Below are positions 45,247-60,966 of a stretch of 64,000 bases of DNA, in pieces (position 1 is the stretch's first letter; the number at the start of each line of letters is the position of its first letter). The stretch comes from a bacterium (GTDB lineage: Bacteria; UBP4; UBA4092; JAOAEQ01): the NCBI GenBank assembly GCA_026416715.1, contig JAOAEQ010000002.1, positions 1-64,000 on the forward strand, read 5' to 3'. The notes beneath the pieces were generated by a model. The model did no database searches and was not told the DNA's origin. It worked only from the letters and a program-made list of their open reading frames with translations. Both the position numbers and the translations under genes were made by a program.

Positions 45247-45298
45247 GTTGTATTATTATTTTAAACAAACAGTGGTATAACCCTGTGTGGGGTTCCGT

Positions 45299-45766
45299 AT
45301 GAAGATTGTTATCGGTTCAGACCACGCTGGATTCGAATTGAAAGAAACCATTAAATCTTATTTACTTGAACTCGGACATGAAGTGAAAGATTTCGGAACG
45401 TTTGATGGTTCTACGCCGGTCGATTGGCCTGATATTGCGTTTTTAGTTGCACAAGCAGTGATGCGGGGTGAATTCGATCGCGGGATTATGATTGATGGTA
45501 TCGGAACCGCTATGCCAATCGTAGCCAATCGTCTGCCGGGGATTCGCGCGATGTGTTGTTATGATGCGTTTACTACGCAAATGAGTCGAGAACATGCTGA
45601 TGCAAATATCCTCTGTCTTGGCGGGTATATGACCGGTAAAGGTTTAGCGAAAATATTAGTTAAACAATGGCTGACTACTGAATTTCTCGGTGGTCGATAT
45701 ATCAAACGATTGGAGAAAGTAAAAGAACTAGAGAAAGTTCTTTATAAACCAGAATTATTAAAATAA
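45299..45766 (+). CDS. RpiB/LacAB-like sugar-phosphate isomerase, divergent active site
   Basis: ATG 45299 gives 155 residues (MKIVIGSDHAGFELKETI); an upstream GTG at 45287 is less likely. The fold is that of RpiB: GSDHAGF at 6-12, SREHADANILCLGG at 97-109, FLGGRYIKRLEKV near the end. The usual catalytic segment CGTGIGMSIAANK is replaced by DGIGTAMPIVANR, so the catalytic Cys becomes Asp66 and the anion loop is altered. This variant resembles the RpiB-like proteins found beside deoxyribose-phosphate aldolase in sugar-phosphate-type microcompartment loci (family knowledge, from memory). Its substrate may differ from ribose-5-phosphate. MTA phosphorylase and DeoC genes follow. Confidence 0.85.
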   Translation: MKIVIGSDHAGFELKETIKSYLLELGHEVKDFGTFDGSTPVDWPDIAFLVAQAVMRGEFDRGIMIDGIGTAMPIVANRLPGIRAMCCYDAFTTQMSREHADANILCLGGYMTGKGLAKILVKQWLTTEFLGGRYIKRLEKVKELEKVLYKPELLK

Positions 45767-45930
45767 ATTCGAAATATCGAATATCGAAACAAAAAGATAA
45801 CTATAAAACGTAAAAAACGGAAAAGCCGACAACGATACTGGTAAGTTTTGAAGTAGAGTATGTATATTTTGGTTTTTGGCATGTCTTTTATTGTTGCGAC
45901 ATTCGATATTTAGAATAGATTTTTACTCCT

Positions 45931-46827
45931 ATGGAAAAAGTTAATTTAGCCGTAATTGGTGGTAGTGGATTATATCAGATGGAAGGACTAACGGAGCTGA
46001 AGGAAGTGAAACTGAAAACTCCGTTCGGTAATCCATCTGATACAATTATGATAGGCACTTTAGCAGGGATGCGGATAGCATTTTTACCTCGGCATGGTCG
46101 CGGACATCGGATTATGCCAACGGAACTGAATTCCCGGGCGAATATTTATGCGTTAAAGAAACTGGGAGTAGAACGGATTATTTCCGTGAGTGCGGTAGGT
46201 AGTTTGCGAGAAGATTATAAACCGCTCGATGTGGTTATTCCCGACCAACTCGTTGACCGAACTCGGCATCGAATACATTCAACTTTTTTTGGGAATGGAA
46301 TTGTTGCTCATATTCAATTTTCTGACCCGTTCTGTCCGGATTTATCGAAATGGCTTATTCAATCCGGACAAAATCTCAATAAAACTGTCCATCCGCAGGG
46401 AACTTGGATTTGTATGGAAGGACCGGCATTCTCGACAAAAGCGGAATCGAACTTATATCGTCAATGGGGGATGGATATTATCGGGATGACCGTGCTTCCT
46501 GAAGCGAAATTAGCGCGGGAAGCAGAAATATGTTATGCTGCAATAGCTTTGGTTACTGATTATGATTGCTGGCATCAGACGGAAGAAACTGTTTCTGTTG
46601 AAATGGTGATTCAGAATCTGTTAGCTAATGTAGAAACGGCAAAAAATATGATTCGCAATATTATTCCCATGCTGCCGAAAGAACGGAATTGTCATTGTGC
46701 AACGGCGTTACAGTATGCAATTATAACCGACCCGAAACGGATTACTCCCGCAATCAGGAAAAAACTAGCGTTGCTTATTGATAAATATTTACCAGAACAA
46801 CCTACAAAAAAAACGCAAAGCCTGTAG
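45931..46827 (+). CDS. mtnP: S-methyl-5'-thioadenosine phosphorylase
   Basis: This 298-residue protein is a purine phosphorylase of the MTAP branch. GGSGLYQMEGL is the phosphate-binding start, PRHGRGHRIMPTELNSRANIYALKKLGVERIISVSAVGSL is diagnostic for MTAP/PNP, and ICMEGPAFSTKAESNLYRQWGMDIIGMTVLPEAKLAREAEICYA contains the nucleoside-binding Met and the Asp that contacts the purine lies in VTDYDCWH. It splits MTA (and usually 5'-deoxyadenosine) into adenine and the 1-phosphate sugar, feeding MtnA encoded at 57365. The C-terminal 40 residues are longer than average. The preceding gene encodes an RpiB-like isomerase. Confidence 0.9.
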   Translation: MEKVNLAVIGGSGLYQMEGLTELKEVKLKTPFGNPSDTIMIGTLAGMRIAFLPRHGRGHRIMPTELNSRANIYALKKLGVERIISVSAVGSLREDYKPLDVVIPDQLVDRTRHRIHSTFFGNGIVAHIQFSDPFCPDLSKWLIQSGQNLNKTVHPQGTWICMEGPAFSTKAESNLYRQWGMDIIGMTVLPEAKLAREAEICYAAIALVTDYDCWHQTEETVSVEMVIQNLLANVETAKNMIRNIIPMLPKERNCHCATALQYAIITDPKRITPAIRKKLALLIDKYLPEQPTKKTQSL

Positions 46828-46903
46828 AACGTTACAACTTGTGGCTATGCAGAAAGTTTATTCGCCATTAGCGGGACTAGCGAAACGGCGGTTCATCATA
46901 ACA

Positions 46904-47048
46904 CAGCCATAAACGGCTGCGCTAAATCACTTATCCATTCGGGATAAACAACAAGCCCTGCAAAGGGCGATTGCGCTTAGTTTAGCCCAGTATGCAATGT
47001 TGGGAAATTTAGTTCGAGCAAAACGAAATAGTCCCGTCCTTGGGGCGG
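46904..47048. repeat. Chain of GC-rich hairpins, dispersed palindromic repeat type
   Basis: Within the 415-base gap before deoC there are successive stems: CAGCC/GGCTG (46904-46919), GCCCT/AGGGC around a GCAA loop (46955-46968), CCCA/TGGG (46986-47004) and CCG.CC/GG.CGG (47033-47048). The overall text (GCCCTGCAAAGGGCGA, then a CCCA..TGGG element, then CCGTCCTTGGGGCGG) resembles a repeat family I recall from Planctomycetes and FCB-type genomes. The block is not coding. The remaining bases up to 47242 include a tRNA-like fragment that does not fold as a complete tRNA. Confidence 0.5.
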
Positions 47049-47242
47049 CTGAATGAAAAAACATCATTTCACTGCGGAGAATGCCGAGGTGGTACAACTG
47101 GTAGAGGTAACAAACAGAACTAATTGGTTTCTCAGCAGACTCTGCGAACTCTTCGCTGGAAAATCAGGGTTTATCATCCTTTAGGGGTAAGTTGTTACTT
47201 CAGCATAACGTCAGCACGATAGATGGACTGAAATAAGGAACT

Positions 47243-48136
47243 ATGAATGAACAACAGATAAACGAATTGGTTACTGCTATAACCAGAAACGTTCTGGCGC
47301 GTCTGCAATCGGCTAAAGACTCGATTCATCAACTCCAACGTCCCACAACCGCACTTGGTTGCAGCAACGATCCGGCTTCCTGTTCGGATTGCGGCCATTG
47401 CGCAACTAAACGAACTGATGCGGTGCAAGAATTCGTTCACGCCGGGGTAGCTCGAATCAGTTCTGCACCGCATATCGCGCAGGTTCCTGCCACCATCGCA
47501 CGGTTGATTGACCATACCCTACTAAAACCAACAGCAACTCCGGATGAAATTATTCAACTCTGCCAAGAAGCGAAACAGTTTGGGTTTGCTACGGTTTGTG
47601 TAAATCCGACGTATGTTAAATTAGCTAAATCGCAATTACAAGGGAGTCCGGTTAAAGTTTGCACAGTGGTAGGGTTTCCGTTAGGCGCCACGTCAACCAC
47701 TGCTAAAGTCTGCGAGACCTTGCAAGCGATAATTGACGGTGCCGATGAAATCGATATGGTGATTAATATCGGGTTGCTTAAAGGAGGTCGGCTGAAAGAA
47801 GTTGAAGAAGATATCCGCGCGGTTAAACAAGCTTGTCAAGGACGAATCCTAAAAGTTATTATCGAAACTGCGCTGCTCTCTGATGAGGAGAAAGTTACCG
47901 CTTCAATTCTGGCGAAAGCGGCTGGAGCGGATTTCGTTAAAACTTCGACAGGGTTCTCTTCCGGCGGTGCTACGGTTAAAGATGTCGCGCTGATGCGAAA
48001 AGCGGTCGGTCCGGAAATGGGCGTTAAAGCCTCCGGCGGGATTCGGGATTTAGCTACCGCAGAACAAATGGTACAAGCTGGTGCAACCCGACTGGGCACT
48101 AGCGCAAGTATTGCAATCGTGAAAGGAACGCAATAA
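47243..48136 (+). CDS. deoC: Deoxyribose-phosphate aldolase with N-terminal helix and four-Cys extension
   Basis: This 297-residue protein has a DERA core from about residue 82 ([17 protein letters not shown]) to the end; ordinary DeoC is about 220 residues. Active-site residues are present: Asp171 (EIDMVINIG), Lys204 ([10 protein letters not shown]), Schiff-base Lys233 ([14 protein letters not shown]) and Lys262 (VKASGGIRD). The extra N-terminus has an amphipathic helix at 1-25 ([16 protein letters not shown]), like encapsulation peptides of microcompartment enzymes, followed by cysteines at 40, 47, 50 and 53 (CX6CX2CX2C). DERA splits deoxyribose-5-phosphate into acetaldehyde and glyceraldehyde-3-phosphate. 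The neighbouring RpiB-like gene and the BMC vertex protein at 56256 support a compartment role, which remains inference. Confidence 0.9.
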
Positions 48137-48286
48137 GAAATCTCGGTTGTGAACAGTACAATACCAAATGCCTAAATCCCCATGCTAATAAATGACCCAT
48201 GTCAAAACAATCATATATGATCTGGAATTTGAAATTTGACATTATTACCTTAGAGAACATGCTCGAAAAATTAAGCTTGTGGATAT

Positions 48287-48826
48287 ATGTATTCTGATAT
48301 AGAAAAAATATTATTAACCGAAGAACAGCTGCAAACGCGAATTAAAGAGCTCGGTGCCCAAATTTCACAAGATTATGTCGGGAAAAATCCGTTGTTAATC
48401 TCGGTACTTAAAGGGTCGATTATATTTTTATCTGATTTACTCCGTTGTATCACAATCCCTTGTACTTTCGATTTAATGACGGTCAGCAGCTATGGGAAAA
48501 AAACGCATTCTTCCGGATCGGTTAAACTCGTCATGGATTTAAAACAAGATGTAGCTAATCAGCACGTTCTGATTATCGAAGATATCTTCGATACCGGAAG
48601 AACAATATACTATATCCTTGAACATATCAAACTCCGAAATCCAGCAAGCGTAAAAACCTGCGTTCTCTTAAACAAACTTGCTCCACGTGAGATAAATATT
48701 CATCTCGATTATATCGGATTCAATATTCCGAATGAATTTGTTGTTGGATATGGTCTTGATTACGGTGAATTCTATCGAAATCTACCGTATGTTTGTGTTC
48801 TCAAACCAGAAGTATACCAAAAGTAG
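48287..48826 (+). CDS. hpt: Hypoxanthine phosphoribosyltransferase
   Basis: This 179-residue protein has the PRPP-binding motif VLIIEDIFDTGRT, the flexible loop SSYGKKTHSSGSVKLV, the early LISVLKGSIIFLSDLLR loop and the late LDYIGFNIPNEFVVGYGLDYGEFYRNLPYV, all standard for Hpt. It recovers hypoxanthine or guanine as nucleotides using PRPP. With MtnP, a purine nucleoside phosphorylase and phosphopentomutase nearby it completes a nucleoside salvage set: the base is saved while the pentose is degraded. No obvious Shine-Dalgarno sequence precedes the ATG. Confidence 0.93.
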   Translation: MYSDIEKILLTEEQLQTRIKELGAQISQDYVGKNPLLISVLKGSIIFLSDLLRCITIPCTFDLMTVSSYGKKTHSSGSVKLVMDLKQDVANQHVLIIEDIFDTGRTIYYILEHIKLRNPASVKTCVLLNKLAPREINIHLDYIGFNIPNEFVVGYGLDYGEFYRNLPYVCVLKPEVYQK

Positions 48827-49051
48827 CGGCTTACTTTATTGACTCCACCTAATCTCAAAATGTATGGGCTAAAGTCCGATATTATCAAGCTAGTGGGAAC
48901 TCAGTTCAATAGAATAAATCCCTATGAGCTTCAGTTCGGGGTAACTGGTACCTAAACCACGTTGGGAGTGAATCCCGAATCTCTTGATCCCGCAAGGCTG
49001 GAAACAAAAAATGGATATTCCCTATTGTAAAATTTGAGGGATATCTACGAA

Positions 49052-50047
49052 ATGAATCAATCTGCTACGCTAGAGTTAACCGGTAGGGAAATAACATTGG
49101 CAAAAAAGATTACCTTAACAATTGATTCTACCGCACCCAAAATTCGGATAGACCTTTTTTTAGCTAAACAACCTGAACTAGGACTATCAAGAGCACGCAT
49201 TCAATCCCTGTTGGCCCAAGGATTAATCAAAGTTAACGGGAAAACAGTTAAACCGAGTTATCAACTCCGGACTAACGATTGTATTGACATTATAATTCCT
49301 GAACCGGAACCATTAACGATTGAATCAGAACAAATTCCGCTTGATATCTATTATGAAGATGAACAAGTTATCGTTATCAATAAACCGGCGGGGATGGTTG
49401 TTCATCCAGCAGCTGGAGTTAAAAAAGGAACGTTGGTTAACGCGTTGTTAGCGCATTGCAAAGGTTTATCCGGCATCGGCGGAATCCAGCGACCGGGAAT
49501 TGTTCATCGATTGGATAAAGGGACTTCCGGTTTACTCATGGTCGCTAAAACCGATTTTGCGCATCAGATATTATCTGCACAGTTGAAAGAACGTAGTATA
49601 ACCCGAAAATATTTAGCGTTAGTTTATGGGAAAGTAGAACCGAATGAAGGATATATCGAGACCAAAATCGGTCGGCATCCAAAAAACCGGAAAAAAATGG
49701 CGGTTGTAACTCAGGGCGGAAGAATTGCAGGCACCTATTATAACGTTATCCAATATTTTTATTCTGGATTTACCTTAGTTGAATGCAAATTAACTACCGG
49801 CAGAACACATCAGATTCGAGTCCATTTATCTTACGTCGGACATCCAATTGTTGGCGATACAACCTATGGGAGCAAAAAAACCAGAAAACTTCCAGCCAAC
49901 CTAGAATCAGCGGTTAAACAACTGAACGGAATCGCACTCCACGCACAAACGCTCGGATTTAACCATCCGATAACCAAAACATACCTCGAATTTACTGCTC
50001 CGTTACCTCAAAAATTCCAAGAGCTTATTTCTTTACTATCAAATTAA
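49052..50047 (+). CDS. RluD/RluC-type 23S rRNA pseudouridine synthase
   Basis: A TTG at 49034 extends the frame, but ATG 49052 has GAGG 12-15 bases upstream and is preferred, giving 331 residues. An S4 RNA-binding domain lies at about 35-80 (RIDLFLAKQPELGLSRARIQSLLAQGLIKVNGK). The catalytic domain has VINKPAGMVVHPA, the HRLDKGTSGLLMVAKT active-site motif with the catalytic Asp, RKYLALVYGK and LTTGRTHQIRVHLSYVGHPIVGDTTYG. It converts specific uridines in large-subunit rRNA to pseudouridine. A housekeeping gene, unrelated to the surrounding nucleoside catabolism. Confidence 0.92.
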   Translation: MNQSATLELTGREITLAKKITLTIDSTAPKIRIDLFLAKQPELGLSRARIQSLLAQGLIKVNGKTVKPSYQLRTNDCIDIIIPEPEPLTIESEQIPLDIYYEDEQVIVINKPAGMVVHPAAGVKKGTLVNALLAHCKGLSGIGGIQRPGIVHRLDKGTSGLLMVAKTDFAHQILSAQLKERSITRKYLALVYGKVEPNEGYIETKIGRHPKNRKKMAVVTQGGRIAGTYYNVIQYFYSGFTLVECKLTTGRTHQIRVHLSYVGHPIVGDTTYGSKKTRKLPANLESAVKQLNGIALHAQTLGFNHPITKTYLEFTAPLPQKFQELISLLSN

Positions 50048-50330
50048 CCCGAAGTTTGAATTAGAACCGATACTCACTTGCAGCAGGATTTTTCGTTTTA
50101 AGCGGAGTATCCCAATGGATATCGAAATTCCAGGCTATTCACTATCGAACTAACTCGCCCAGTGTTTCAGCTCGATTGTGGTACCATACACTTGCGGTAA
50201 AATTGTGGTTCACTACACTACGATGTGTCCTGCGTTATGGTATGATAAAGGGTGCGGTTTTGTTTCAAACTATTTACCTCTATAGAAAGATAGTCTTTAC
50301 AATAAGTCAGTTAAATTTTTTTGGACAGTA

Positions 50331-50861
50331 GTGAAATATAATCAAAATCAATTTTTTTCGCATTTTTTTGTAGGGTTTTATATGGTCTATTCCCGTCTAT
50401 ATATAAGAGGAGCAGGTTACGGAATTATTAACCCCAATATTTTAGCGATACCGATTAGTGCGGTGGTGCCTACGCTTTCTTCTTGGCAAGTAAACTTTAT
50501 GCAGAAACTTAAAAAGGTAATTAGTGATTATATTTTAAAATTTATATTTTGGTTTTACTTTTTCTTCGTAATAATACATACAATGCTGGTGGGTTATTGG
50601 GATGGCAGGGCTCGGTGGAATACCTGGAATAGTTTTGGAATGGACATTGGGATGTTGATTATTAATATATCTATGATTTATCTTATCAAGGTTGCTCGTC
50701 AAGAAGGCAGAATAAGAAGCATTAAGAGCAGCAAAAAATATAAACAATTTGTCATAATTACAATCGTAATATTTATTGTAAGTTATACTGTAGGCTTTAT
50801 TTTTTGGCATAAAGTATGGCAGTTTCTTAAGTTTTTAGTACAACTGCAGCATAGAATATGA
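50331..50861 (+). CDS. Hypothetical membrane protein, three predicted helices
   Basis: Starting at a GTG, this 176-residue frame has three hydrophobic segments: YILKFIFWFYFFFVIIHTMLVG, MDIGMLIINISMIYLI and FVIITIVIFIVSYTVGFIFW, separated by short basic loops (RQEGRIRSIKSSKKYKQ). No family is recognised. The N-terminal 60 residues look unlike a signal and the true start may be an internal ATG. Codon use and AT-richness are higher than in the neighbouring genes, which could mean horizontal acquisition or simply membrane-residue bias. It stands alone between intergenic gaps. Confidence 0.5.
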   Translation: MKYNQNQFFSHFFVGFYMVYSRLYIRGAGYGIINPNILAIPISAVVPTLSSWQVNFMQKLKKVISDYILKFIFWFYFFFVIIHTMLVGYWDGRARWNTWNSFGMDIGMLIINISMIYLIKVARQEGRIRSIKSSKKYKQFVIITIVIFIVSYTVGFIFWHKVWQFLKFLVQLQHRI

Positions 50862-50927
50862 AATTTCCCATGCATTTATTGTGCGCTTGAGAAACGGGTG
50901 ATACGAACGGATTCATTTCAAATTTAG

Positions 50928-50974
50928 CCCCGTTAAACGGGGTAAACATTTAGTTTTACCCCGACAAAGTCGGG
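50928..50974. repeat. Three contiguous palindromes, dispersed-repeat type
   Basis: CCCCG-TTAAA-CGGGG (50928-50942), GGTAAA...TTTACC (50941-50960) and CCCGAC-AAA-GTCGGG (50960-50974) abut each other. The gap 50862-51125 otherwise holds no gene. The block lies about 70 bases after the membrane protein gene and has no T run, so it is more likely a repeat element than a standard terminator. Confidence 0.6.
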
Positions 50975-51125
50975 AATTTCAAAACGAAAATTTGCACACT
51001 GCTAACTTTGCCATTTAAACTGATTGATATGGTTTCTTATGTTCAGGAAGGCTTCGGGAATGTTTTAGCTACTAGCGGTTCTCTGACCTCTAACTTATGG
51101 CATCTGACCTCGAAGCAGGTAATAG

Positions 51126-51165
51126 ATAATAAAAAGAGCAAAGTCCGAATTTCGGACTTTGCTCT
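51126..51165 (-). terminator. Intrinsic terminator of pgk
   Basis: The arms 51133-51148 and 51150-51165 (AAGAGCAAAGTCCGAA and its complement) form a 14-16 bp stem, followed on the minus strand by CTTTTTATTAT. It lies about 55 bases downstream of the pgk stop. Confidence 0.9.
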
Positions 51166-51219
51166 TGCATAGCATCCATTTAAATCCGCTGGCTATTTTA
51201 TGCCCGTCTGAATCTGTTA

Positions 51220-52407
51220 TTATTTGTTCGTTAACGCTGCCACGCCTGGTAATTCGATTCCTTCCAAAAACTCTAACGACGCACCGCCTCCGGTAGAAAC
51301 ATGGCTCATTTTATCGATATACCCTGCTTTTTCGAGCGCTGCAATTGAATCACCACCACCGATGATAGTTACCGCACCGGATTCACCAACGAGTTTCGCT
51401 ATCGCATTGGTTCCTTTAGCAAACGGTTCCATTTCAAACACACCGAGCGGACCATTCCAGACAATCGTTTTCGCTTTCTTAATTTCACTAGCAAACTTCT
51501 CGATGGTTGCCGGACCGATATCCATTCCCATCCATCCTTCAGGAATCTTGCCTTGAACCACAGTTTGCACATTCGCATCCGGCGCAAAGTTATCAGCTAT
51601 AATATGGTCTATCGGCAGCAGTAACGGAATACCTTTTTCATTCGCTTTCGCAAGAATCTCTTTCGCTAACGGAATCTGGTCTTCTTCAATGAGCGATTTG
51701 CCAATACTTCCCCCTTGCGCTTTTAGGAACGTATACGCCATCCCGCCACCGATAATCAGGCTGTCAACTTTATTAAGCAGATTTTTAATAACCCCGATTT
51801 TCGTTGAAACTTTCGCGCCACCGAGTATAGCAAGGAATGGACGTGCCGGATTTTCTAACGCTTTTCCAAGATAATCAATTTCTTTTTTCATCAGGAAACC
51901 CGCTACTGCCGGCTGGATATATTTAGCGACTCCTTCAGTTGAAGCATGCGCGCGATGCGCTGACCCGAACGCATCGTTGACATAGACATCGCCGAGTTTC
52001 GCTAGTTTCCGAGCAAATTCCGGGTCATTTTTCTCTTCTTCTGCATAGAACCGGACGTTTTCAAGTAACACGACCTCGCCTTCTTTCATCGCGTTCACCA
52101 CAGATTCAACTTGCGGTCCAATACAGTCATCTAGTTTTATCACCGGTTTCCCGAGCAACTCACTTAACCGTTTCCCAATCGGAGTTAACCGATATTTTTC
52201 ATCTACTTTCCCTTTCGGCCGACCGAGATGCGACATCAGAATCGCTTTCCCGCCTTTTTCGATGATATATTGAATAGTTGGCAACGATGCACGAATCCGA
52301 GTATCATCCGTGATATTTCCTTGTTCATCCTGCGGAACATTGAAATCTACCCGAACTAAAACGCGTTTCCCTTTAAGCTCAATATCTGATATACATAGTT
52401 TATTCAT
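51220..52407 (-). CDS. pgk: Phosphoglycerate kinase
   Basis: ATG 52405-52407 with GGAGGGAAAACTT just upstream gives 395 residues; the upstream TTG in the same frame overlaps the Shine-Dalgarno sequence. Hallmarks are [86 protein letters not shown] and the C-terminal [17 protein letters not shown] followed by [17 protein letters not shown]. It makes ATP from 1,3-bisphosphoglycerate in glycolysis. It is a single-gene unit with its own promoter (52455-52484) and terminator; the usual gap/tpi neighbours are absent. Confidence 0.96.
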
Positions 52408-52454
52408 AAGTTTTCCCTCCAATAATACATGGTTTGACTATAGTTTAGGTGATT

Positions 52455-52484
52455 ATTGTATATAGAAATCGCTAAATTCGTCAA
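52455..52484 (-). promoter_or_regulatory. Sigma-70-type promoter for pgk
   Basis: On the minus strand TTGACG (52479-52484) and TACAAT (52455-52460) are separated by 18 bases, with about 45 bases of leader before the ATG. Confidence 0.65.
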
Positions 52485-52589
52485 CTGTTTATGATTAGAA
52501 TCAGAAGTCTAACAAAATATTAAATAATCGAAATTTTAAATAAAATTCCTGGTCTACACGATGCTGGATGGTAATTCTTTTTGTTTGAG

Positions 52590-52617
52590 TTCGCATAAAT
52601 CTACCTCTTTATGCGAA
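52590..52617. repeat. 10-bp perfect inverted repeat upstream of pgk
   Basis: TTCGCATAAA (52590-52599) and TTTATGCGAA (52608-52617) flank an 8-base spacer. It is about 105 bases upstream of the pgk -35 box and about 120 bases downstream of the membrane glycosyltransferase gene. It may be an operator or a weak terminator without a T run. The remaining gap 52618-52740 shows nothing else. Confidence 0.45.
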
Positions 52618-52740
52618 TTTGCGAAAAATATCTTTAGCATAATTCTGACAATTTGAAACAATTCGTTGAGTTGAATTATTCCTACTAGAGCATAATACAA
52701 GTTAAATATATTTAATCTTTAACGTATGTAAAATCAGGAT

Positions 52741-54180
52741 TCATAATTTCGAATCCCTACTATACACCCAATATTTCCCGAGATGGTCAACTAAATGATA
52801 GTTGGTTCGAATCGCGTTAATCATTTCTTCCGTATATCGTTCTAAATCCGGATTGCGGTTAACATCGAAATAGAGGATAATCAGGTCAAACTTCTGCTGG
52901 TTCAAATCATTGACGACAGGCGTTTGGTCCCATAATTTCTGGCGGGCGAGCGTGCTCATGATAAACGGCTGAAATAATACTGGTCGGTAATTACGAACCA
53001 ACATCGCCGCATCATCACTTACAATCATCCCCATCGTCTGCTGAATATATTTTTCGGTTTCCCGAGCATAGAACCAATCTTTTTTAGTCGGCGTTTCTCC
53101 ATATTCGAATTTATAGGGGATATGGTATATCCAAACCAATTGTACTATAAGCAAAACATTGATTACCATTGGTTTGGAAATCCGAAATTTATTTATACTA
53201 ATCCCAAAGAGGATACTACTCGCAGCGATAAGTTCTAATAAATAATTCACCGCTGACCCGACCTTTCCACAACTTAACGCGACTATGACCGAAAAGGAAA
53301 AATAGAGCGAAAAGAGGATATTGATTTTTTCCCTACCTAGTGCAAATAGTGCAAATAAAACTAACATCAGAAATATCGGATAGAAATAAATAAGGTTTTT
53401 TGCATAGAGCCAGACGGTAAACCACGAAAATGGATTCATATTATATACAACCAAATGCTGATAAAACTCTCCGCTGGTAATCGTGTTTCCAACCAGAAAA
53501 ACAATGATTATTCCTACGAGATATACGAAAACTAACATCCTAGCTTGTTTCTTATCTTTCATAAAAAGATATATTGCGGCGGCAACCGGAGCTGCTACCA
53601 TACTCTGCTTGGTATAAAAAGCGAGAATGAACAATATACAAGGGATTAAAACACCTGATATTTTTGATTTCGAATTGTGAATTTCGAATATACGCCAAAT
53701 AAGATATATTCCAAGCAGAGAGAAGAACAGCGCGAGCATATCTACCCGGTTATACGCTGCCCAACGATAGAAATAATGGGTAGCAAATGGAAACAATGCG
53801 GCGATGAATGCTGGGGTATTCGTATTGGTTATCCTCTTAACGATGAGAAATACTATCAATCCGATTAGGAGTGTAGAGAGAACTGATAAAGTTCGGCCAA
53901 TGGCATGGCTATTCCCAAAAATCCAGGTTAGTGGCACGCAGACCAACTGGAATACCGGTGGATAATTCCCGACGGTATAAGGATAATCGTTCAACGTCGG
54001 ATAAATAGTTTTCCCTTGAGCGAGTAATTTGGTTTGATTTAAGATAAATCCTTCTTCATTATCCAAATCATAGGGATAGATGATATACATGATGCAATGG
54101 TAGAGAAAAAAGAGAAAATAAACTATTAATATACCAATAACAATAGTTGTACCTATTTTCTGTATGATATTTATATTCAT
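52741..54180 (-). CDS. GT39-like multi-spanning membrane glycosyltransferase
   Basis: This 479-residue protein has about ten membrane helices. After the first helix the acidic motif YPYDLDNEEGFILNQTKLLAQGKTIY corresponds to the Asp-Glu catalytic loop of ArnT/PMT-like GT-C enzymes (normally DExxY). GNYPPVFQLVCVPLTWIFG, AIGRTLSVLSTLLIGLIVFLI and RWAAYNRVDMLALFFSLLGIYLIWR follow the usual pattern. These enzymes transfer a sugar from a polyprenyl-phosphate donor to lipid or protein on the outer face of the cytoplasmic membrane. The C-terminal 100 residues form a small soluble domain. Substrate unknown. Confidence 0.75.
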   Translation of the reverse strand: MNINIIQKIGTTIVIGILIVYFLFFLYHCIMYIIYPYDLDNEEGFILNQTKLLAQGKTIYPTLNDYPYTVGNYPPVFQLVCVPLTWIFGNSHAIGRTLSVLSTLLIGLIVFLIVKRITNTNTPAFIAALFPFATHYFYRWAAYNRVDMLALFFSLLGIYLIWRIFEIHNSKSKISGVLIPCILFILAFYTKQSMVAAPVAAAIYLFMKDKKQARMLVFVYLVGIIIVFLVGNTITSGEFYQHLVVYNMNPFSWFTVWLYAKNLIYFYPIFLMLVLFALFALGREKINILFSLYFSFSVIVALSCGKVGSAVNYLLELIAASSILFGISINKFRISKPMVINVLLIVQLVWIYHIPYKFEYGETPTKKDWFYARETEKYIQQTMGMIVSDDAAMLVRNYRPVLFQPFIMSTLARQKLWDQTPVVNDLNQQKFDLIILYFDVNRNPDLERYTEEMINAIRTNYHLVDHLGKYWVYSRDSKL

Positions 54181-54296
54181 ATATTAATGCCAAATGGGCA
54201 ATCAACCTAAAGTCATACCACTTCTGACCGCTAGAAAATAATATCATATGCTAAGTGCCTCCTTTGCCAACTCCTGTGAACTTAGCGGTTAGCGTT

Positions 54297-54839
54297 CTAT
54301 TCTGTAAAATCAAGCATGCATGGGAAAAACGCTAATCCTAAATAATGTTGCGTAAAACTTTGCGCTGCAAGTTCATCAAATAATCGTGGTAGTTTTTCTC
54401 TTTGTTCTTTACTCTGTAAACCGTATGGTATACCGTGAACCTTATATAAGTTTAGATGGTGATATAGTTCATGAGCCAGTGCGATTTGTTCAAGTTGGGT
54501 AACAGCAATTTCATGGTTGTTTTTTTCTGCTAACTGCTGGATAGCTTTTCGGTAAATGGTTATCGTCGGGGGATTGCCGGAATATTTTGCATAGATTCGC
54601 AGAGTTCCGAGCCGACTTGTTTCATAATTATAGTGCACTATGACCCCCAATTGATTAGCAAGTTTTTCTAACGGAACATTCGGATAATTTTGTTGCATTG
54701 TGCATGCAATTTTTCTACCGCATTCTAGCGCCTGCTGGATAAATTGGTTTTGTTTTTCAGCGGATAATTGAGTAAATACTTTATGACGAGAACAGAATTG
54801 GACGATGATTTGATAATTTCGGTATGAACGATTTACCAC
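54297..54839 (-). CDS. ImmA/IrrE-like zinc metallopeptidase domain protein
   Basis: This 180-residue protein uses a GTG start. The central motif LAHELYHHLNLYK is a zinc HExxH (His-Glu-Leu-Tyr-His), and downstream FDELAAQSFTQHYL supplies the typical third-ligand Glu region of the ImmA/IrrE (DUF955) family. YPNVPLEKLANQLGVIVHYNY is also typical. Such proteases often cleave an XRE-type repressor encoded next door, but no such gene is present here. Its neighbours are a GGDEF regulator and a membrane glycosyltransferase. Function is otherwise unknown. Confidence 0.7.
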   Translation of the reverse strand: MVNRSYRNYQIIVQFCSRHKVFTQLSAEKQNQFIQQALECGRKIACTMQQNYPNVPLEKLANQLGVIVHYNYETSRLGTLRIYAKYSGNPPTITIYRKAIQQLAEKNNHEIAVTQLEQIALAHELYHHLNLYKVHGIPYGLQSKEQREKLPRLFDELAAQSFTQHYLGLAFFPCMLDFTE

Positions 54840-54895
54840 AATCTGATAGAAAGGAAAAACGATATATATTTATGTAACCTTGTAACCTATTGAAC

Positions 54896-55897
54896 CTATT
54901 TAACTATGTTCTCTGGTGGTAAACAGACTTTATTTTTCCCATCCTTTTTCGCTTTATACAATGCGGTATCCGCTTGCCGATTCAGTTCATCTGTTGTTCT
55001 GGCATGGGTAGGAATATTTGCTACTCCGACACTAATGGTTAAATGAAATGTTTTTCCGGGTTCATTAGTTGGAAATTGGGTGGTATCAATCAAATGCCGT
55101 AGTTTTTCGGCAACCACAACCGCAGCGGTGCCGTTCGTTTGGGGAAGCACGATGGCAAACTCATCGCCGCCATATCGTGCAACTAAATCTACTTCTCGCA
55201 CATTTTCGGAAAGTAACCTCGCAATTTGCTTCAGTAAGATATCCCCTTGCTGATGGCCATAGGTATCATTATAATCCTTGAATTGGTCAAAATCAATCAT
55301 AATCAAGGACAGCGGCAAATCATACCGAATCGCTTTTTTCACTTCTTCATCAAGTCGCTCCTGTAGATACCGATGATTATAGAGTTGGGTTAAATCGTCA
55401 GTAATCGCTAGTTTCGATAAATTTTCATTTGCGATTTTCAGCTCACGGGTAGCTTGTTCGATTTTCTCTTCTAAAATCCGTTGCTGTTGTTCCAAATCAT
55501 GAATTAACTGGCGGTTGTTAATAGCTAATGCGCGTTTTGTTATCGCATTGCGGACTGTTAGTCGAATTCGGTCTACCGAAAACGGTTTTTGAATATAATC
55601 AAACACATTCAAGGTAACCGCATCAATCGCTGTATTGATGGAAGCGTAGGCGGTAATAATAATTATTTCTGTATCCGGGTCGAGTTTTTTCGCATGCCGA
55701 GCGATATCCATCCCATTGCCGTCAGGAAACTTAATATCGGTTATCACCAGCGCATACCGTTTTGCACATAACGATTGTATCGCATCCGCAACCGATGCAA
55801 CCTGAGTAATATTATATCCATCCGGCTCAAGTGCATCCGCAATAAGTTCGCCTACGGTTTGTTCATCATCGGCAACGAGAATTCGTTCTTGTGCCAT
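54896..55897 (-). CDS. Response regulator with GGDEF diguanylate cyclase output
   Basis: This 333-residue protein has a receiver domain at 1-120 (ILVADDEQTV, phosphoacceptor Asp54 in VITDIKFPDGNG, the Thr/Ala switch ITAYAS, Lys104 in YIQKPF), a coiled coil at about 125-160, and a GGDEF domain at 165-330. The active motif YGGDEFAIV is intact, and a RxxD inhibitory site (REVD, 234-237) lies five residues before it, so product inhibition by c-di-GMP is expected. Phosphorylation would activate synthesis of c-di-GMP. The gene is divergently transcribed from the BMC shell protein, kinase and mtnA operon, suggesting that the kinase is its partner; that is inference. Confidence 0.9.
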   Translation of the reverse strand: MAQERILVADDEQTVGELIADALEPDGYNITQVASVADAIQSLCAKRYALVITDIKFPDGNGMDIARHAKKLDPDTEIIIITAYASINTAIDAVTLNVFDYIQKPFSVDRIRLTVRNAITKRALAINNRQLIHDLEQQQRILEEKIEQATRELKIANENLSKLAITDDLTQLYNHRYLQERLDEEVKKAIRYDLPLSLIMIDFDQFKDYNDTYGHQQGDILLKQIARLLSENVREVDLVARYGGDEFAIVLPQTNGTAAVVVAEKLRHLIDTTQFPTNEPGKTFHLTISVGVANIPTHARTTDELNRQADTALYKAKKDGKNKVCLPPENIVK

Positions 55898-55999
55898 ATA
55901 TTCAACGTGTCTCTAGCAAAGAATCAATTTCGGAAATTGAAATTGTTATTGTATAATATACAGGAATGATACAATTTGTAAAGGGTTTTCGGTTTTAAA

Positions 56000-56027
56000 T
56001 TGCCGGTGTCCTATTAAATTTTATAAT
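56000..56027 (+). promoter_or_regulatory. Possible promoter for the BMC shell-kinase-mtnA operon
   Basis: TTGCCG (56000-56005) and a perfect TATAAT (56022-56027) are separated by 16 bases on the plus strand, in the 358-base divergent gap 55898-56255. It leaves a leader of about 220 bases containing GC-rich palindromic text. No gene is seen in the gap. Confidence 0.45.
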
Positions 56028-56255
56028 GAAGGGGTTGGGCTATCAAACTTTGCGGTTTCGACTCGGCGTTTAGTCGAGGGTATCTTCCGCTGTATCGAGG
56101 ATATTTCCGCTAAAGCATTGCGAATATAAATGGCATCGACCCTATATGATTGTTCGACTGAAACTATTCAGCATCAGGATTGTTTTATCATAGACATTAC
56201 GTATCTTAAAATAAAAAATAGTGTATAGGTCATTTGGTATTCAGGATTATCGATA

Positions 56256-56558
56256 ATGTATTTAGCGAAAGTCATCGGGAAAGTCATTTCAACCATTAAA
56301 CATCCAGCGTATCTTGACCGAAAAATGTTGCTTATCCAACCGCTAACCCCGAATAACCTACCCACTGGAAGAATTACGATTGCGATTGACTATGTCGGCG
56401 CAGGAGAAGGGGATACTGTTATCATCAGTGCTGGTCCGGGAACTGCGGCAGAAGTATTCGGATATCCCCGCGCTCCGATTCGAGAATTAATTGTCGGGAT
56501 TGTTGACTACATCACAGTAGCAACCGCAGAACATAACAAACACAATCCAAATAGTTAA
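56256..56558 (+). CDS. Bacterial microcompartment pentamer shell protein (EutN/CcmL family, BMC-P)
   Basis: This 100-residue protein matches the BMC vertex family along its whole length: MYLAKVIGKVISTIKHPAYLDRKMLLIQPL is the characteristic opening (xxGxVVxTxKxxxLxGxKLLxV), DYVGAGEGDTVIISAGPGTAAEVFG is the central VGAGxGExV..GSSA-type motif, and APIRELIVGIVDYI is the family end. Five copies form the vertices of microcompartments. No hexameric BMC-H genes are in the window; they must lie elsewhere if an organelle is made. It is immediately followed by a histidine kinase and mtnA. Shine-Dalgarno is weak (AGGAT). Confidence 0.93.
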   Translation: MYLAKVIGKVISTIKHPAYLDRKMLLIQPLTPNNLPTGRITIAIDYVGAGEGDTVIISAGPGTAAEVFGYPRAPIRELIVGIVDYITVATAEHNKHNPNS

Positions 56559-56576
56559 CAATTGCAACATTCAACT

Positions 56577-57341
56577 ATGGCACCGGATACTACAGAACTT
56601 GAAGGAAAATTACGAGAAACAGAAAAACTCGCATATCTAGGGCAGATGTCGAGCAAACTAGCGCATGAGTTGCGGAATCCACTCAATACCATTTCGATAA
56701 ATTTGCAGCTGCTTGAAGAAGATATAAAACGTCTCAAATCAACCAATTTAGACTTGGGATTAATTTCGCAAATAATCGATTGCAATAAATTTTGCCAACG
56801 AATAGAAATATCGCGACATGAAATCGAACGGCTTGAACATCTACTATCGAACTTCCTACGTTTTGCAAAAACCGCTCATAAAGAATTAATTTCTCTCGAT
56901 ATCAATCAGCTGCTCCGTAATTTGATTGAGTTTATCATGCCAACCGCGAAAGCTAAACAGATCGAAATTATCTCCGAATTGCAGTCAGGACTACCGTCCA
57001 TTCGCGCTGACGATAAACTCATCAAATCCGCATTTCTAAATCTAATTCTGAACGCAATCGAAGCAATGCCAACCGGTGGAACGCTAACGATTAAGACTAC
57101 TGCGGTTAACTCGGAGTTGAATCCAATCCAAGTTATCATTCAGGATACAGGAATCGGTATACAACCGAAAAATCTCGCAAAAGTATTCGATATTTTTTAT
57201 ACTACGAAAGAAGATGGTTCCGGTCTCGGTCTGCCAATCGCTAAACGGATTATTAATGATATTGATGGAACGATTACGATAAGTTCAGAAGTCGGGAAAG
57301 GAACGACCGTTACGGTAACCCTCCCGACGGTACCACCGTAA
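56577..57341 (+). CDS. Soluble histidine kinase (HisKA-HATPase_c)
   Basis: The first ATG after the BMC-P stop, at 56577, gives 254 residues; an upstream TTG at 56562 would add five. There is no membrane segment or input domain. The phosphoacceptor His30 lies in KLAHELRNPLNTI (H box), NLILNAIEAMPTGG is the N box, DTGIGIQPKNL the G1 box and GSGLGLPIAKRII the G2 box. It phosphorylates a response regulator on signal, with the signal received by an unknown partner or ligand. It lies 18 bases after the shell gene and 23 bases before mtnA, so all three are co-transcribed. The divergent RR-GGDEF gene is the best candidate partner. Confidence 0.9.
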   Translation: MAPDTTELEGKLRETEKLAYLGQMSSKLAHELRNPLNTISINLQLLEEDIKRLKSTNLDLGLISQIIDCNKFCQRIEISRHEIERLEHLLSNFLRFAKTAHKELISLDINQLLRNLIEFIMPTAKAKQIEIISELQSGLPSIRADDKLIKSAFLNLILNAIEAMPTGGTLTIKTTAVNSELNPIQVIIQDTGIGIQPKNLAKVFDIFYTTKEDGSGLGLPIAKRIINDIDGTITISSEVGKGTTVTVTLPTVPP

Positions 57342-57364
57342 TGGGTACAATTCGGAGTTGAAGT

Positions 57365-58378
57365 ATGGCAATAAAAACATTAGAATGGATTGACAATAAA
57401 CTGCGGTTAATTGACCAGACGATGCTCCCAGAAGTTGAAGGGTATATTGAATGCCAAACGAAAGAAGAAGTGTTTGAAGCGATTCAGCAGATGCGAGTCC
57501 GTGGCGCACCAGCTATCGGAATTGCCGCGGCGTTTGGGGTCGTACTCGGATTATTCCATTCGCAAACTACTGACTATCGCTCATTCCGGCAAGAAGCGGA
57601 ACAGGTTATCCATTATCTTCGACTCGCTCGACCGACCGCAGTTAACCTTTTCAACGCATTGAATCGTATGCAGCAGGTTATTGAGCAGAATAAAAATATG
57701 GAAGTTGCAGATATTAAAATCGCACTTTTAACCGAAGCGAAAATGATTCTTGAAGATGAGAAACGTGCTTCCCAGCAGATGGGTGATTTCGGCGCCCAAT
57801 TACTTCCGCAAGAATGCACGATATTAACCCATTGCAATGCTGGCGCATTAGCGACCGCAGAATATGGTACCGCATTAGCGGTCATCTATCGTGCGGTGGA
57901 ACAAGGGAAAATTATCAAAGTATATGCCGATGAAACCCGACCACTCCTGCAAGGTGCGCGATTAACCTGCTGGGAATTAATGCGAGCGGGAATTGATGTA
58001 ACCTTAATTTGCGATAATATGGCTGCATCGTTAATGCGGAAAAAACTAATTGATTATATTTTTGTTGGTGCTGACCGTATTGCGCGCAACGGTGATACCG
58101 CTAATAAAATTGGAACTTATAACCTAGCGGTATTAGCGAAATACCATGGGATACCATTTTACATTGTTGCGCCGACTTCGACCATAGATAACAATATTCC
58201 GGATGGTGAATACATCCCGATTGAAGAACGTGCTCCGGAAGAAATCACGCAATGGGGAAACCGACGAATTGCACCGAACAATGTTAAGGTATATAATCCT
58301 GCGTTCGATGTTACGCCAGCTGCATTAATCACCGGCTGGATTACTGAAGAAGGACTTCGTCAACCGCCGTTTACTTAG
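57365..58378 (+). CDS. mtnA: S-methyl-5-thioribose-1-phosphate isomerase
   Basis: This 337-residue protein is MtnA. Signatures are QMRVRGAPAIGIAAAFG, TILTHCNAGALATAEYGTAL with the catalytic Cys, ADETRPLLQGARLTCWEL, and DRIARNGDTANKIGTYNLAVLAKYHGIPFYIVAP with the catalytic Asp. It isomerises methylthioribose-1-phosphate (and 5-deoxyribose-1-phosphate) to the ribulose form. It pairs with mtnP at 45931; the later methionine-salvage genes (mtnB, mtnC, mtnD) are absent, which instead fits a shunt ending in an aldolase. CGGAGTTGAAGT precedes the ATG, and the gene is co-transcribed with the BMC-P and kinase genes. Confidence 0.93.
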   Translation: MAIKTLEWIDNKLRLIDQTMLPEVEGYIECQTKEEVFEAIQQMRVRGAPAIGIAAAFGVVLGLFHSQTTDYRSFRQEAEQVIHYLRLARPTAVNLFNALNRMQQVIEQNKNMEVADIKIALLTEAKMILEDEKRASQQMGDFGAQLLPQECTILTHCNAGALATAEYGTALAVIYRAVEQGKIIKVYADETRPLLQGARLTCWELMRAGIDVTLICDNMAASLMRKKLIDYIFVGADRIARNGDTANKIGTYNLAVLAKYHGIPFYIVAPTSTIDNNIPDGEYIPIEERAPEEITQWGNRRIAPNNVKVYNPAFDVTPAALITGWITEEGLRQPPFT

Positions 58379-58530
58379 TCTCTATCTGATTTGAGCTGAA
58401 GAGGTATAATGCTTTTAGTATAAAAAATGGCTAACCCTACAAGGTTAGAACTCTGAGCTGAAGTTTATTCCGATGCATATCGGAACTCGGTCGAAGCTCG
58501 TTCGGTGCTATATTTCTAAGTGAATTTTGG

Positions 58531-58573
58531 GGGGTTGAGTGGGTATTGCTCAAAGCAATACCCACTCAACCCC
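58531..58573. repeat. 20-bp perfect hairpin
   Basis: The arms 58531-58550 and 58554-58573 are perfectly complementary over 20 bases, with a three-base CAA loop. It lies between mtnA and the DUF167 gene, 21 bases before that gene's ATG, with no T run on either side. The preceding bases 58379-58530 contain smaller palindromes (CTAACC/GGTTAG; CCGAT/ATCGG) but no gene. Confidence 0.9.
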
Positions 58574-58594
58574 AGTGATACCCTACAATATAGA

Positions 58595-58855
58595 ATGAAA
58601 TTAACAGTGAAATTACAGCCGCGAGCACGGAACAATGAAATTATCGGAGTTAAAGAAGGTATGGTATGGGTTCGGGTTACGGCACCGCCGGTTGATAATC
58701 AAGCGAATGGAGCGTTAATCGCTTGCTTAGCGAAAAAACTCGATATTCCGAAATCTAGAATTCGGATTGTCACCGGAACCCAATCCCGAATAAAAGTCAT
58801 TGAAATTGATGGAATAACCGACCTAGAACTTTATGCTAAATTAAAGGGGAAATAA
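58595..58855 (+). CDS. DUF167 (YggU family) small protein
   Basis: ATG 58595 gives 86 residues; a longer frame would include the hairpin and is rejected. The text VKLQPRARNNEIIGV, WVRVTAPPVDNQANGALIACLAKKLDIPKSRIRIVTGTQSRIKVIEI is the complete DUF167/YggU fold, found across bacteria, of unknown biochemical role. The last base of its TAA is the A of the ATG of the following purine nucleoside phosphorylase, so the two are coupled. It is a conserved housekeeping gene of unknown function. Confidence 0.85.
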   Translation: MKLTVKLQPRARNNEIIGVKEGMVWVRVTAPPVDNQANGALIACLAKKLDIPKSRIRIVTGTQSRIKVIEIDGITDLELYAKLKGK

Positions 58856-59691
58856 TGAATCCACGTATTACAATTCAACAAATTGAATCTAGCGCCCGAT
58901 ATGTAAAGAAACGGATTAAACCAACTCCCAAAATAGCGATTGTTCTCGGCTCGGGATTAGGTGAATCCATTACTACCGCTATCAAGAATAAGAAAATTAT
59001 TCCTTATAAAACGGTACCGTATTTCCCGGTTTCAACTGTTCCTGGACATAGCGGTCAGCTTATTGCCGGTGAGCTCCATCGAACACCCCTACTAGTTCTA
59101 CAGGGGCGCTGGCATTTTTATGAAGGATATACGCTTGCCCAGATAACCTTTCCGATTCGCGTTCTTAAAGCGATTGGAATTAAAACGTTGATATTAACCT
59201 GTGCAGCTGGTGGATTAAATCCGAACCATCACCCTGGCGACTTAATGCTGATAACTGACCATATCAACCTGATAGGAGATAATCCACTCATCGGACTCAA
59301 TGACCCGGCGTTCGGACCGCGATTTCCAGATATGTCGGAACCATATAATTCGGAATTAATTACATTAGCGCGAGCAACGGCAAAAAAACTCAACATTACA
59401 TTGCATCAAGGGGTATATACCGCGGTTAGTGGTCCAAACTATGAAACGAACGCAGAATTGAAATGGCTTCGCAAAATCGGAACTGATGCTATCGGAATGT
59501 CAACCGTTCCAGAATGTATTGTCGCAAATCAAATCGGACTGCAGGTGCTCGGGGTTGTAGCGATAACTGATGTCTGGCATGGGAAATATAGCCAGCCGTT
59601 ATCGCATACGGAAGTACTTAAAGTTGCGAACCGGATATCAGGCACGTTAAGTAAACTTATTATTGGGATAATTAAAAATATCAAATGCTAA
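58855..59691 (+). CDS. punA: Purine nucleoside phosphorylase (trimeric, inosine-guanosine type)
   Basis: This 278-residue protein belongs to the trimeric PNP family. IAIVLGSGLGESI is the phosphate loop, TVPGHSGQLIAGEL and LQGRWHFYEGYTLAQITFPIRVLKAIGIKTLILTCAAGGLN are family hallmarks, VSGPNYETNAELKWLRKIGTDAIGMSTVPE contains the purine-binding Glu and ribose-binding Met, and AITD closes the site. It splits inosine, guanosine and the deoxy forms into base and (deoxy)ribose-1-phosphate. It overlaps the DUF167 gene by one base and is followed by deoB, which converts its sugar product to the 5-phosphate. Confidence 0.93.
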   Translation: MNPRITIQQIESSARYVKKRIKPTPKIAIVLGSGLGESITTAIKNKKIIPYKTVPYFPVSTVPGHSGQLIAGELHRTPLLVLQGRWHFYEGYTLAQITFPIRVLKAIGIKTLILTCAAGGLNPNHHPGDLMLITDHINLIGDNPLIGLNDPAFGPRFPDMSEPYNSELITLARATAKKLNITLHQGVYTAVSGPNYETNAELKWLRKIGTDAIGMSTVPECIVANQIGLQVLGVVAITDVWHGKYSQPLSHTEVLKVANRISGTLSKLIIGIIKNIKC

Positions 59692-59790
59692 TTCTCACCT
59701 TCGTAACGATATCATACCTGCAAAAGCTGGACTGAATGCTAAGGGAATATAAAATGATTAACCATGTAGCTTTGTTTTGATATTTCGTCT

Positions 59791-60966
59791 ATGCTGTTAA
59801 CTCGGGTTATATTAATTGTCTTAGATGGTGTTGGAATCGGCGAACTTCCTGATGCAGTTCGATTTAATGACCAAGGGAGTAATACGCTGGGTAATCTCGC
59901 AAAAGCTGTCGGTGGATTGCAGCTCCCGAATTTCCAGAAACTCGGATTAGGCAATATCGCTCCTATATTAGGAGTTGAACCGGCTAATCCTGCGCTAGCG
60001 AGTTATGGCAAAATGGCAGAACGCTCTGCGGGGAAAGATACTACGGTTGGCCATTGGGAACTTGCTGGGATTATTTCTACCAAACCGTTTCCCGTGTATC
60101 CGCAAGGATTCCCGAAAGAAATTATCGACCAATTTATATCTGAAACTGGGATACACGGTATCCTCGGGAATGTTCCTGCTTCCGGAACTGAAATTATCTT
60201 GCGTCTCGGTGAAGAACATCTCAAAACCGGGTATCCTATCGTTTATACTTCTGCGGATAGCGTATTCCAAATCGCTGCACATGAAAAAATCATTCCGATT
60301 GAAGAGCAATATCGAATATGTACAATTGCGCGGCAGATTCTCCAAGGAGAGCATGGGGTAGCGCGAGTTATTGCCCGTCCATTTCTTGGTGAACCGGGGA
60401 AATTTTATCGCACTGAACGACGAAAAGATTTTTCTCTTCCGCCACCGCAACCGACAATGTTAGATTATTTAAAAGAAGCAGGATATACAGTGTTTGGCAT
60501 CGGAAAAATCGAAGATATATTTGCAAATCAAGGGTTAACGAACTCAATCCATGCGCATGGTAATACGGAATGTATTGAAACTACGCTTGCGGTTATCCAT
60601 CAATCGTTCTCAGGGCTCATTTTGGTTAATCTGGTTGATTTCGATATGCTCTGGGGACATCGGAACGATTGCGCCGGATTCTATCATGGATTGATTGAAG
60701 TAGATAAGAAACTTCCGGAAATAATGCATGCAATGCAACCAACGGATATCCTATTTCTCGTTGCTGACCATGGTAATGACCCGACTACTCCTAGCACCGA
60801 CCATTCCCGCGAATATTCACCGCTTTTGGTCTATAGCCCGTCGCTAAAAGGAAACGTTAACCTTGGCACGCGCGCATCCTTCGCTGATATTGCTGGAACA
60901 ATAGCGGAAATTTTCCAATTGAAGACTAACCTTGCTGGCAGAAGTTTCCTAAAAGAACTCATCTGA
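59791..60966 (+). CDS. deoB: Phosphopentomutase
   Basis: This 391-residue protein belongs to the alkaline phosphatase-like superfamily. [18 protein letters not shown] is the N-terminal metal site, [16 protein letters not shown] contains the nucleophilic Thr, [37 protein letters not shown] is the phosphopentomutase cap, and [27 protein letters not shown] is the second metal site. It interconverts ribose-1-phosphate and ribose-5-phosphate and the deoxy pair. With PNP upstream and DeoC at 47243 it completes conversion of deoxynucleosides to acetaldehyde and glyceraldehyde-3-phosphate. Confidence 0.95.

Follow-up and report, generated by a model that had tools for sequence, protein, structure and literature searches.

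The window analysed here is a 64,000-nucleotide stretch of contig JAOAEQ010000002.1 from a bacterium of the UBP4 lineage (assembly GCA_026416715.1), and about 16 kb of it carries a BMC-P vertex protein of a bacterial microcompartment (BMC) near genes for the salvage of nucleosides and S-methyl-5'-thioadenosine (MTA). Profile searches across the whole genome (2.96 Mb, 64 contigs, completeness 100) lead us to a reading that we consider rather probable: one dispersed metabolosome shell, encoded at four places, with two aldehyde-releasing aldolases targeted to it by encapsulation peptides (EPs). One is DeoC, 2-deoxyribose-5-phosphate aldolase, and the other is a class II aldolase that would act on the products of MtnP and MtnA. 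The gene inventory, the copy numbers, the EP architecture and the fact that one shell set comes with two tagged aldolases are established at the level of sequence.

Shell genes and tagged aldolases

The shell and cargo genes occupy four separate places: the window (one BMC-P), C1:37 kb (two BMC-P), C20:22 kb (BMC-T) and C1:181-187 kb, where a core operon runs on one strand in the order class II aldolase, BMC-H, BMC-H, PduL, flavoprotein-like gene and aldehyde dehydrogenase (AldDH), with gaps of 54-159 bases. The AldDH (L008) is of the EutE/PduP type (NF011927, 619 bits, cut-off 403), and PduL, the phosphotransacylase (PTAC), matches NF011652 with 239 bits (cut-off 209). BMC-H and BMC-P never stand at the same place in this genome; together, the BMC-H pair, the one BMC-T and the three BMC-P are sufficient for a single shell type. 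Judged from these family matches, the metabolosome set is complete except for an identified NAD-recycling enzyme. The original prediction, made from the window, had proposed a scattered microcompartment of the sugar-phosphate-utilizing (SPU) type, had rightly seen no BMC-H, AldDH or class II aldolase inside the window, and had counted the absence of any BMC-H gene from the genome as evidence against itself. Two BMC-H genes are present, and the AldDH, the PTAC and the fuculose-type class II aldolase that it suggested looking for are all found at C1:181-187 kb. With these shell genes, and with no diol dehydratase seen beside the genome's own shell loci, the scattered microcompartment is real and SPU-like. 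At C1:37 kb, a glycerophosphodiester phosphodiesterase gene (PF03009, L009:9786-10517) starts 9 bases past the second BMC-P of the pair.

To locate targeting peptides, an EP profile was built from the tails of class II aldolases and the N-termini of AldDH proteins in other genomes, with this genome excluded, and was scanned over 241 proteins from stretches of this genome and of a relative, G001. The C-terminus of the class II aldolase ranked first, the N-terminus of DeoC second and the N-terminus of AldDH third, while the PduL N-terminus came lower, after two internal matches. We rely on rank and terminal position rather than on E-values (6.0 bits, E 0.11 for DeoC), because 20-residue motifs score small. 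In the AlphaFold model of DeoC, residues 3-30 form a helix and residues ~31-80 a linker of low confidence (block predicted local distance difference test, pLDDT, ~40-63), after which comes the aldolase domain; a helix-linker-cargo form is the one described for encapsulation peptides (PMC8217296). Model and rank together bear out the suggestion that the DeoC N-terminus resembles an EP. Alignment shows no variation at the residues that we take, from general knowledge of DeoC, to be catalytic (Lys of VKTSTG, Lys of VKASGG and Asp of EIDMV), and this DeoC is the genome's sole copy. The genome's sole class II aldolase has the architecture of a C-terminal EP, so that both aldehyde-releasing enzymes are tagged.

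Both aldolases also have Cys-rich CxxC/CxxCxxC motifs between EP and catalytic domain (DeoC linker residues ~40-58; class II aldolase, L008:9880-10761). Similar linker motifs occur in L012, L018, L019, L023 and L216, and Cys-pair motifs are present in 25/40 BMC-type class II aldolase tails compared to 1/49 others. They may form a metal site or a redox switch.

A single shell locus with both aldolases is found in another genome, G272, and supports the idea of one shell for both. Its 6.8-kb contig encodes, on one strand, an RpiB-DeoC fusion, BMC-H, BMC-P, AldDH, BMC-T, two BMC-P and a class II aldolase, the last with a Cys-rich tail and no clear EP. The fusion, one open frame of ~480 residues, occurs in G272 (L216:5106-6563) and G026 (L125), and the G272 protein has an EP-like helix, ANDLERIAREVSSMLS, between its RpiB and DeoC domains. 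We infer that both aldolases are co-encapsulated in the cell studied here. The earlier idea that two routes feed one shell has gained ground from the two tags and chiefly from G272; that the class II aldolase serves the MTA and 5'-deoxyadenosine route is likely.

In the RpiB-like protein of the window, the motif MIDGIG has Asp at the position where Cys is expected, a residue whose catalytic role is general knowledge for the E. coli RpiB. Among the loci compared, Asp occurs in 15/15 RpiB proteins beside EP-bearing DeoC or SPU shell genes and Cys in 7/7 others (p 6e-6, with sequences that are not independent); the RpiB of G272 has Asp too. The genome's other RpiB (C13:6347-6763) has the catalytic Cys, and we reject the window protein as the ordinary housekeeping isomerase. 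In the G145 locus (L174), which has a class II aldolase and shell genes, a very divergent RpiB carries Glu at this position. No mention of an Asp-type RpiB was found in the passages of the literature that were consulted. As a guess, the Asp-type protein could be an isomerase with an altered base, or could open the sugar ring for DeoC.

Feeder genes and a proposed pathway

Family matches confirm all eight genes that the original prediction had named in the window (Table 1). The 16-kb stretch comprises two neighbourhoods, with Pgk and unrelated genes in between. RpiB-like, MtnP, DeoC, Hpt and RluD genes lie at 45.3-50.0 kb with loose gaps of 150-415 bases, and BMC-P, histidine kinase, MtnA, YggU, PNP and DeoB genes at 56.3-61.0 kb. 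Since only 3 bases separate BMC-P from the kinase gene and 23 bases separate the kinase gene from mtnA, all on one strand, the shell gene and mtnA are probably co-transcribed. The kinase (56562-57341) is a possible regulator, whose signal could steer the shell and the MTA route jointly.

The only same-class genome compared, G001, serves as a shell-less control. A profile search found no PF00936 protein in it, and it keeps the arrangements MtnP-DeoC-Hpt-RluD and MtnA-(insertion)-YggU-PNP-DeoB-WecG, with no RpiB-like gene beside MtnP and no BMC-P beside MtnA. Its DeoC has no long N-terminal extension, and its class II aldolase ends at 212 residues without a C-terminal tail. The parts missing from G001 are those that a shell would require. 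In the aldolase tree, this tail-less protein adjoins the tagged aldolase of our genome inside a mostly tagged family, which makes loss of the shell in G001 plausible. In G001 the aldolase gene is followed immediately by a homocysteine S-methyltransferase-like one (L116:7206-8844), a hint at a link to S-adenosylmethionine (SAM) and methionine metabolism. In the same genome, Hpt (L114:8619-9686) seems to be fused in a 355-residue frame to an N-terminal region that by inspection resembles a Clp N-domain, which would be unusual unless it is a start-site artefact.

The presence of both salvage clusters in G001 shows them to be independent of a shell. MtnP, MtnA, PNP, DeoB and Hpt, none of which is among the best 25 EP matches of the 241 proteins, are best read as cytosolic feeders and not as shell members. 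On this point the original prediction, which had counted all five into a BMC locus, is not supported; MtnP, Hpt, PNP and DeoB are rejected as locus members, and the SPU loci examined showed neither MtnP nor MtnA next to DeoC.

5'-deoxyadenosine and MTA are by-products of SAM and radical-SAM enzymes. In the pathway that we propose, MtnP and MtnA would convert them in the cytosol to 5-deoxyribulose-1-phosphate and methylthioribulose-1-phosphate, respectively, 5-deoxyribose-1-phosphate being an alternative substrate of MtnA, which is encoded once in the genome (a single TIGR00512 match). PNP, which releases (deoxy)ribose-1-phosphate from (deoxy)nucleosides, and DeoB, which converts deoxyribose-1-phosphate to the DeoC substrate deoxyribose-5-phosphate, would supply the other route. 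The sugar phosphates would pass into the shell, where tagged DeoC would release acetaldehyde with carbon from DNA breakdown, and the tagged class II aldolase would split the ketose-1-phosphates into dihydroxyacetone phosphate (DHAP) and acetaldehyde or methylthioacetaldehyde, probably derived from spent SAM cofactor. AldDH would then turn the aldehyde into acyl-CoA, and PduL would turn acyl-CoA into acyl-phosphate. Such a drain could draw an unfavourable aldol cleavage forward and keep toxic aldehyde contained. Aldol equilibria of this type strongly favour the ketose phosphate (PMC6079011), which would make it useful to link the cleavage to AldDH. The reactions of the DHAP shunt are established chemistry (PMC10986504), and we infer their encapsulation here.

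Table 1. Features of the window and shell genes elsewhere in the genome. Positions without a contig label refer to the window.
Feature	Position	Strand	Family match
RpiB-like sugar-phosphate isomerase, BMC-type paralogue	45287..45766, ATG at 45299	+	PF02502 165 bits, TIGR01120 156 bits
MtnP, S-methyl-5'-thioadenosine phosphorylase, without encapsulation peptide	45931..46827	+	TIGR01694 338 bits (cut-off 275)
DeoC, 2-deoxyribose-5-phosphate aldolase	47243..48136; encapsulation peptide ~47243-47332	+	PF01791; TIGR00126 285 bits (cut-off 117)
Hpt, hypoxanthine phosphoribosyltransferase (base salvage, not shell component)	48287..48826	+	TIGR01203 206 bits
BMC-P vertex protein, third of the genome's three	56256..56558	+	PF03319 79 bits (cut-off 25)
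Sensor histidine kinase between BMC-P and mtnA	56562..57341	+	PF00512, PF02518
MtnA, 5-methylthioribose-1-phosphate isomerase	57365..58378	+	TIGR00512 458 bits (cut-off 279)
YggU-like small protein	58520..58855	+	open reading frame; named by inspection, no family search
Purine nucleoside phosphorylase (PNP)	58855..59691	+	NF006054 351 bits, TIGR01700 314 bits
DeoB, phosphopentomutase	59791..60966	+	TIGR01696 461 bits
Two BMC-H	C1:185048-185275, C1:185502-185729		PF00936
One tandem BMC-T	C20:22361-22873		PF00936
Two further BMC-P	C1:37035-37283, C1:37485-37736		PF03319

A second PNP is encoded at G000:C4:21989-22711 (L094; NF006054, 310 bits).

Substrate of the class II aldolase and competing explanations

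As the class II aldolase is the only PF00596 protein in the genome, MtnB is absent, and the three PF01048 proteins, MtnP and two PNPs, leave no MTA nucleosidase. The visible route for MTA and 5'-deoxyadenosine therefore runs through MtnP and MtnA to the class II aldolase as the only visible consumer. The Glu/His metal-site residues of this aldolase align with those of DrdA and FucA, and the protein is about equally near to DrdA, FucA and YgbL-type proteins.

We surveyed 80 BMC genomes, classing aldolase tails by their length (58-149 residues) and using the hydrophobic moment as a guide only, and compared them with the better-scoring aldolases of a 60-genome sample for the non-BMC side. C-terminal tails of 58-106 residues were found on class II aldolases of 37 BMC genomes compared to 0/21 non-BMC proteins (Fisher p 1.7e-6; this and the following tallies ignore relatedness, and many of the genomes are probably metagenome-assembled), and most of the 37 tails end in amphipathic helices. 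MtnA scored above its cut-off in 36/37 genomes with an EP-aldolase and in 32/48 non-BMC genomes (p 3e-4). The neighbours that recur beside EP-aldolases across unrelated genomes are shell genes, AldDH, PduL and, named by inspection, PduS-like and acetate-kinase-like genes, with little else.

An alternative is that the shell is a plain SPU shell for deoxyribose-5-phosphate and that the tagged class II aldolase cleaves L-fuculose- or L-rhamnulose-1-phosphate to lactaldehyde, as in PVM and GRM5 microcompartments. Class II aldolases of the same superfamily are used there (PMC8217296, PMC4207490), FucA models score second for our aldolase, sugar and glycan genes abound in the surroundings, and the genome has two FGGY kinases. 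Both kinases, however, fit xylulokinase best and stay far below the curated cut-offs for fuculokinase (<=187 vs 471 bits) and rhamnulokinase (<=81 vs 528 bits), the genome searches having left FucI and RhaA outside their scope. Moreover, the EP-aldolase is the sole PF00596 protein in 30/37 genomes, and an FGGY kinase above cut-off is missing from 18 of the 28 such genomes searched, 17 of which have MtnA. These tallies argue for a DHAP-shunt substrate over fucose or rhamnose, and the alternative would leave the product of MtnA without a visible outlet in the genome. We regard it as unlikely, though still the strongest of the competing explanations.

It is less likely again that only DeoC, RpiB and the shell are coupled, with MtnP, MtnA and the class II aldolase serving cytosolic methionine and nucleoside salvage and the aldolase tail having no targeting function. 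The clusters shared with shell-less G001 and the lack of MtnP and MtnA in SPU loci of other phyla are in keeping with this explanation, but the aldolase shares an operon with BMC-H, PduL and AldDH, its tail has the top EP score, long tails were confined to BMC genomes in the survey, and BMC-P is tightly spaced with the kinase and MtnA genes. We give very little credence to the view that the shell genes are decaying satellite remnants of a compartment no longer assembled. The genome has no contiguous main locus, and same-class G001 has no shell and a tail-less aldolase that sits beside tagged ones in the tree; all shell and cargo genes are nevertheless open frames above family cut-offs, EPs and catalytic residues are kept, and scattered shells are a recognised pattern in FRAG, BRC1 and Poribacteria (PMC8217296, PMC4207490).

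Several observations count against a dispersed shell with a class II aldolase acting on MtnP/MtnA products. The absolute EP scores are weak, and an alcohol dehydrogenase that could recycle NAD was not identified. MtnP and MtnA do not lie beside shell genes in the other loci examined. MtnA is not clearly more frequent in EP-aldolase genomes than in other BMC genomes (36/37 vs 36/43, p 0.06), and G070 has an EP-aldolase without MtnA. In the tree, the class II aldolases encoded near MtnA (G023, G029 and G047) belong to other clades than the EP-tagged family. No curated model names the aldolase, the nearest being those for 3-oxo-tetronate-4-phosphate decarboxylase and FucA, all below cut-off. Consumers of the MtnA product were looked for within PF00596, and others, such as Rubisco-like or isoprenoid-shunt enzymes, were not searched for. 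Two expectations were given up along the way: MtnA beside shell genes elsewhere, which was not seen in five MtnA neighbourhoods of BMC genomes, and a phylogenetic grouping of EP-aldolases with MtnA-adjacent ones. On balance, we put slightly more than half of our weight on the class II aldolase consuming the product of MtnA in this genome.

Relation to known microcompartments

By its signature enzymes the system is SPU-like, by its organisation it is FRAG-like, and by its second aldolase it overlaps with the SPU-like and ACI loci; we read it as a dispersed SPU-like microcompartment. With SPU loci (Axen 2014, Sutter 2021) it shares the signature of DeoC (pfam01791) and RpiB-type protein (pfam02502), the EP on DeoC, BMC-H, BMC-P and BMC-T, an acetaldehyde-type AldDH and PduL, and SPU compartments are predicted to use DNA breakdown products. 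In contrast to them, it has no main locus, which is why we do not class it among the SPU loci, and BMC-H and BMC-P are never together. Its core operon also holds a second, EP-tagged class II aldolase, and its DeoC and BMC-P genes have genes for the salvage of nucleosides and MTA as neighbours. The Latescibacteria SPU-like locus (Axen 2014) and the ACI loci (Sutter 2021) likewise have a class II aldolase, shell proteins and AldDH, and in ACI the aldolase bears a C-terminal EP. There the class II aldolase replaces DeoC, whereas here, and in G272, both occur with one shell set. Like FRAG (Sutter 2021), which likewise occurs in candidate phyla, our genome spreads its shell genes over several loci and has three BMC-P, here split two and one; scattered satellite loci had already been noted in BRC1 and Poribacteria (Axen 2014). 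Unlike FRAG, which has no recognised aldehyde-producing signature enzyme, it has two that are EP-tagged.

The DHAP shunt and 5-deoxyribose disposal pathways (MtnP or MtnN-MtnK, MtnA, Ald2; DrdK-DrdI-DrdA) resemble our gene set in MtnP, MtnA, a single fuculose-type class II aldolase and the absence of MtnB. The characterised pathways have been described without a microcompartment, whereas here the aldolase is EP-tagged and falls in another clade than the sampled MtnA-adjacent aldolases. The PVM and GRM5 fucose-rhamnose compartments share the class II aldolase and PduP-type AldDH with our genome, which differs from them in having DeoC and no fuculo- or rhamnulokinase at the curated cut-off.

Four elements are new: one dispersed shell is paired with two aldolases that both bear tags, a genome without a shell serves as control, RpiB supplies a marker, and a by-product of SAM is argued to be a substrate. 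Our literature search found no paper linking microcompartments to the DHAP shunt, and the single paper that mentions both microcompartments and methylthioadenosine is, judged from its title and abstract, about something else. Many catalogued microcompartments (FRAG, HO, MIC) have an AldDH without an assigned aldehyde source (PMC8217296), and the ACI class II aldolase has no assigned substrate. In this genome, two tagged aldolases could be identified via their targeting peptides and not by gene neighbourhood alone, and the Cys-to-Asp change offers a simple marker of the microcompartment RpiB. As a tentative generalisation, which we hold to be possible but short of probable, a widespread group of shells, each with a single class II aldolase tagged at its C-terminus (the shell of this genome as well as SPU-like, ACI-like and some FRAG-like ones), may be DHAP-shunt organelles that dispose of 5'-deoxyadenosine and MTA, the shell being shared with deoxyribose-5-phosphate cleavage in genomes of the present kind. 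Should the class II aldolase indeed take the product of MtnA, these shells would be tied to the disposal of SAM by-products.

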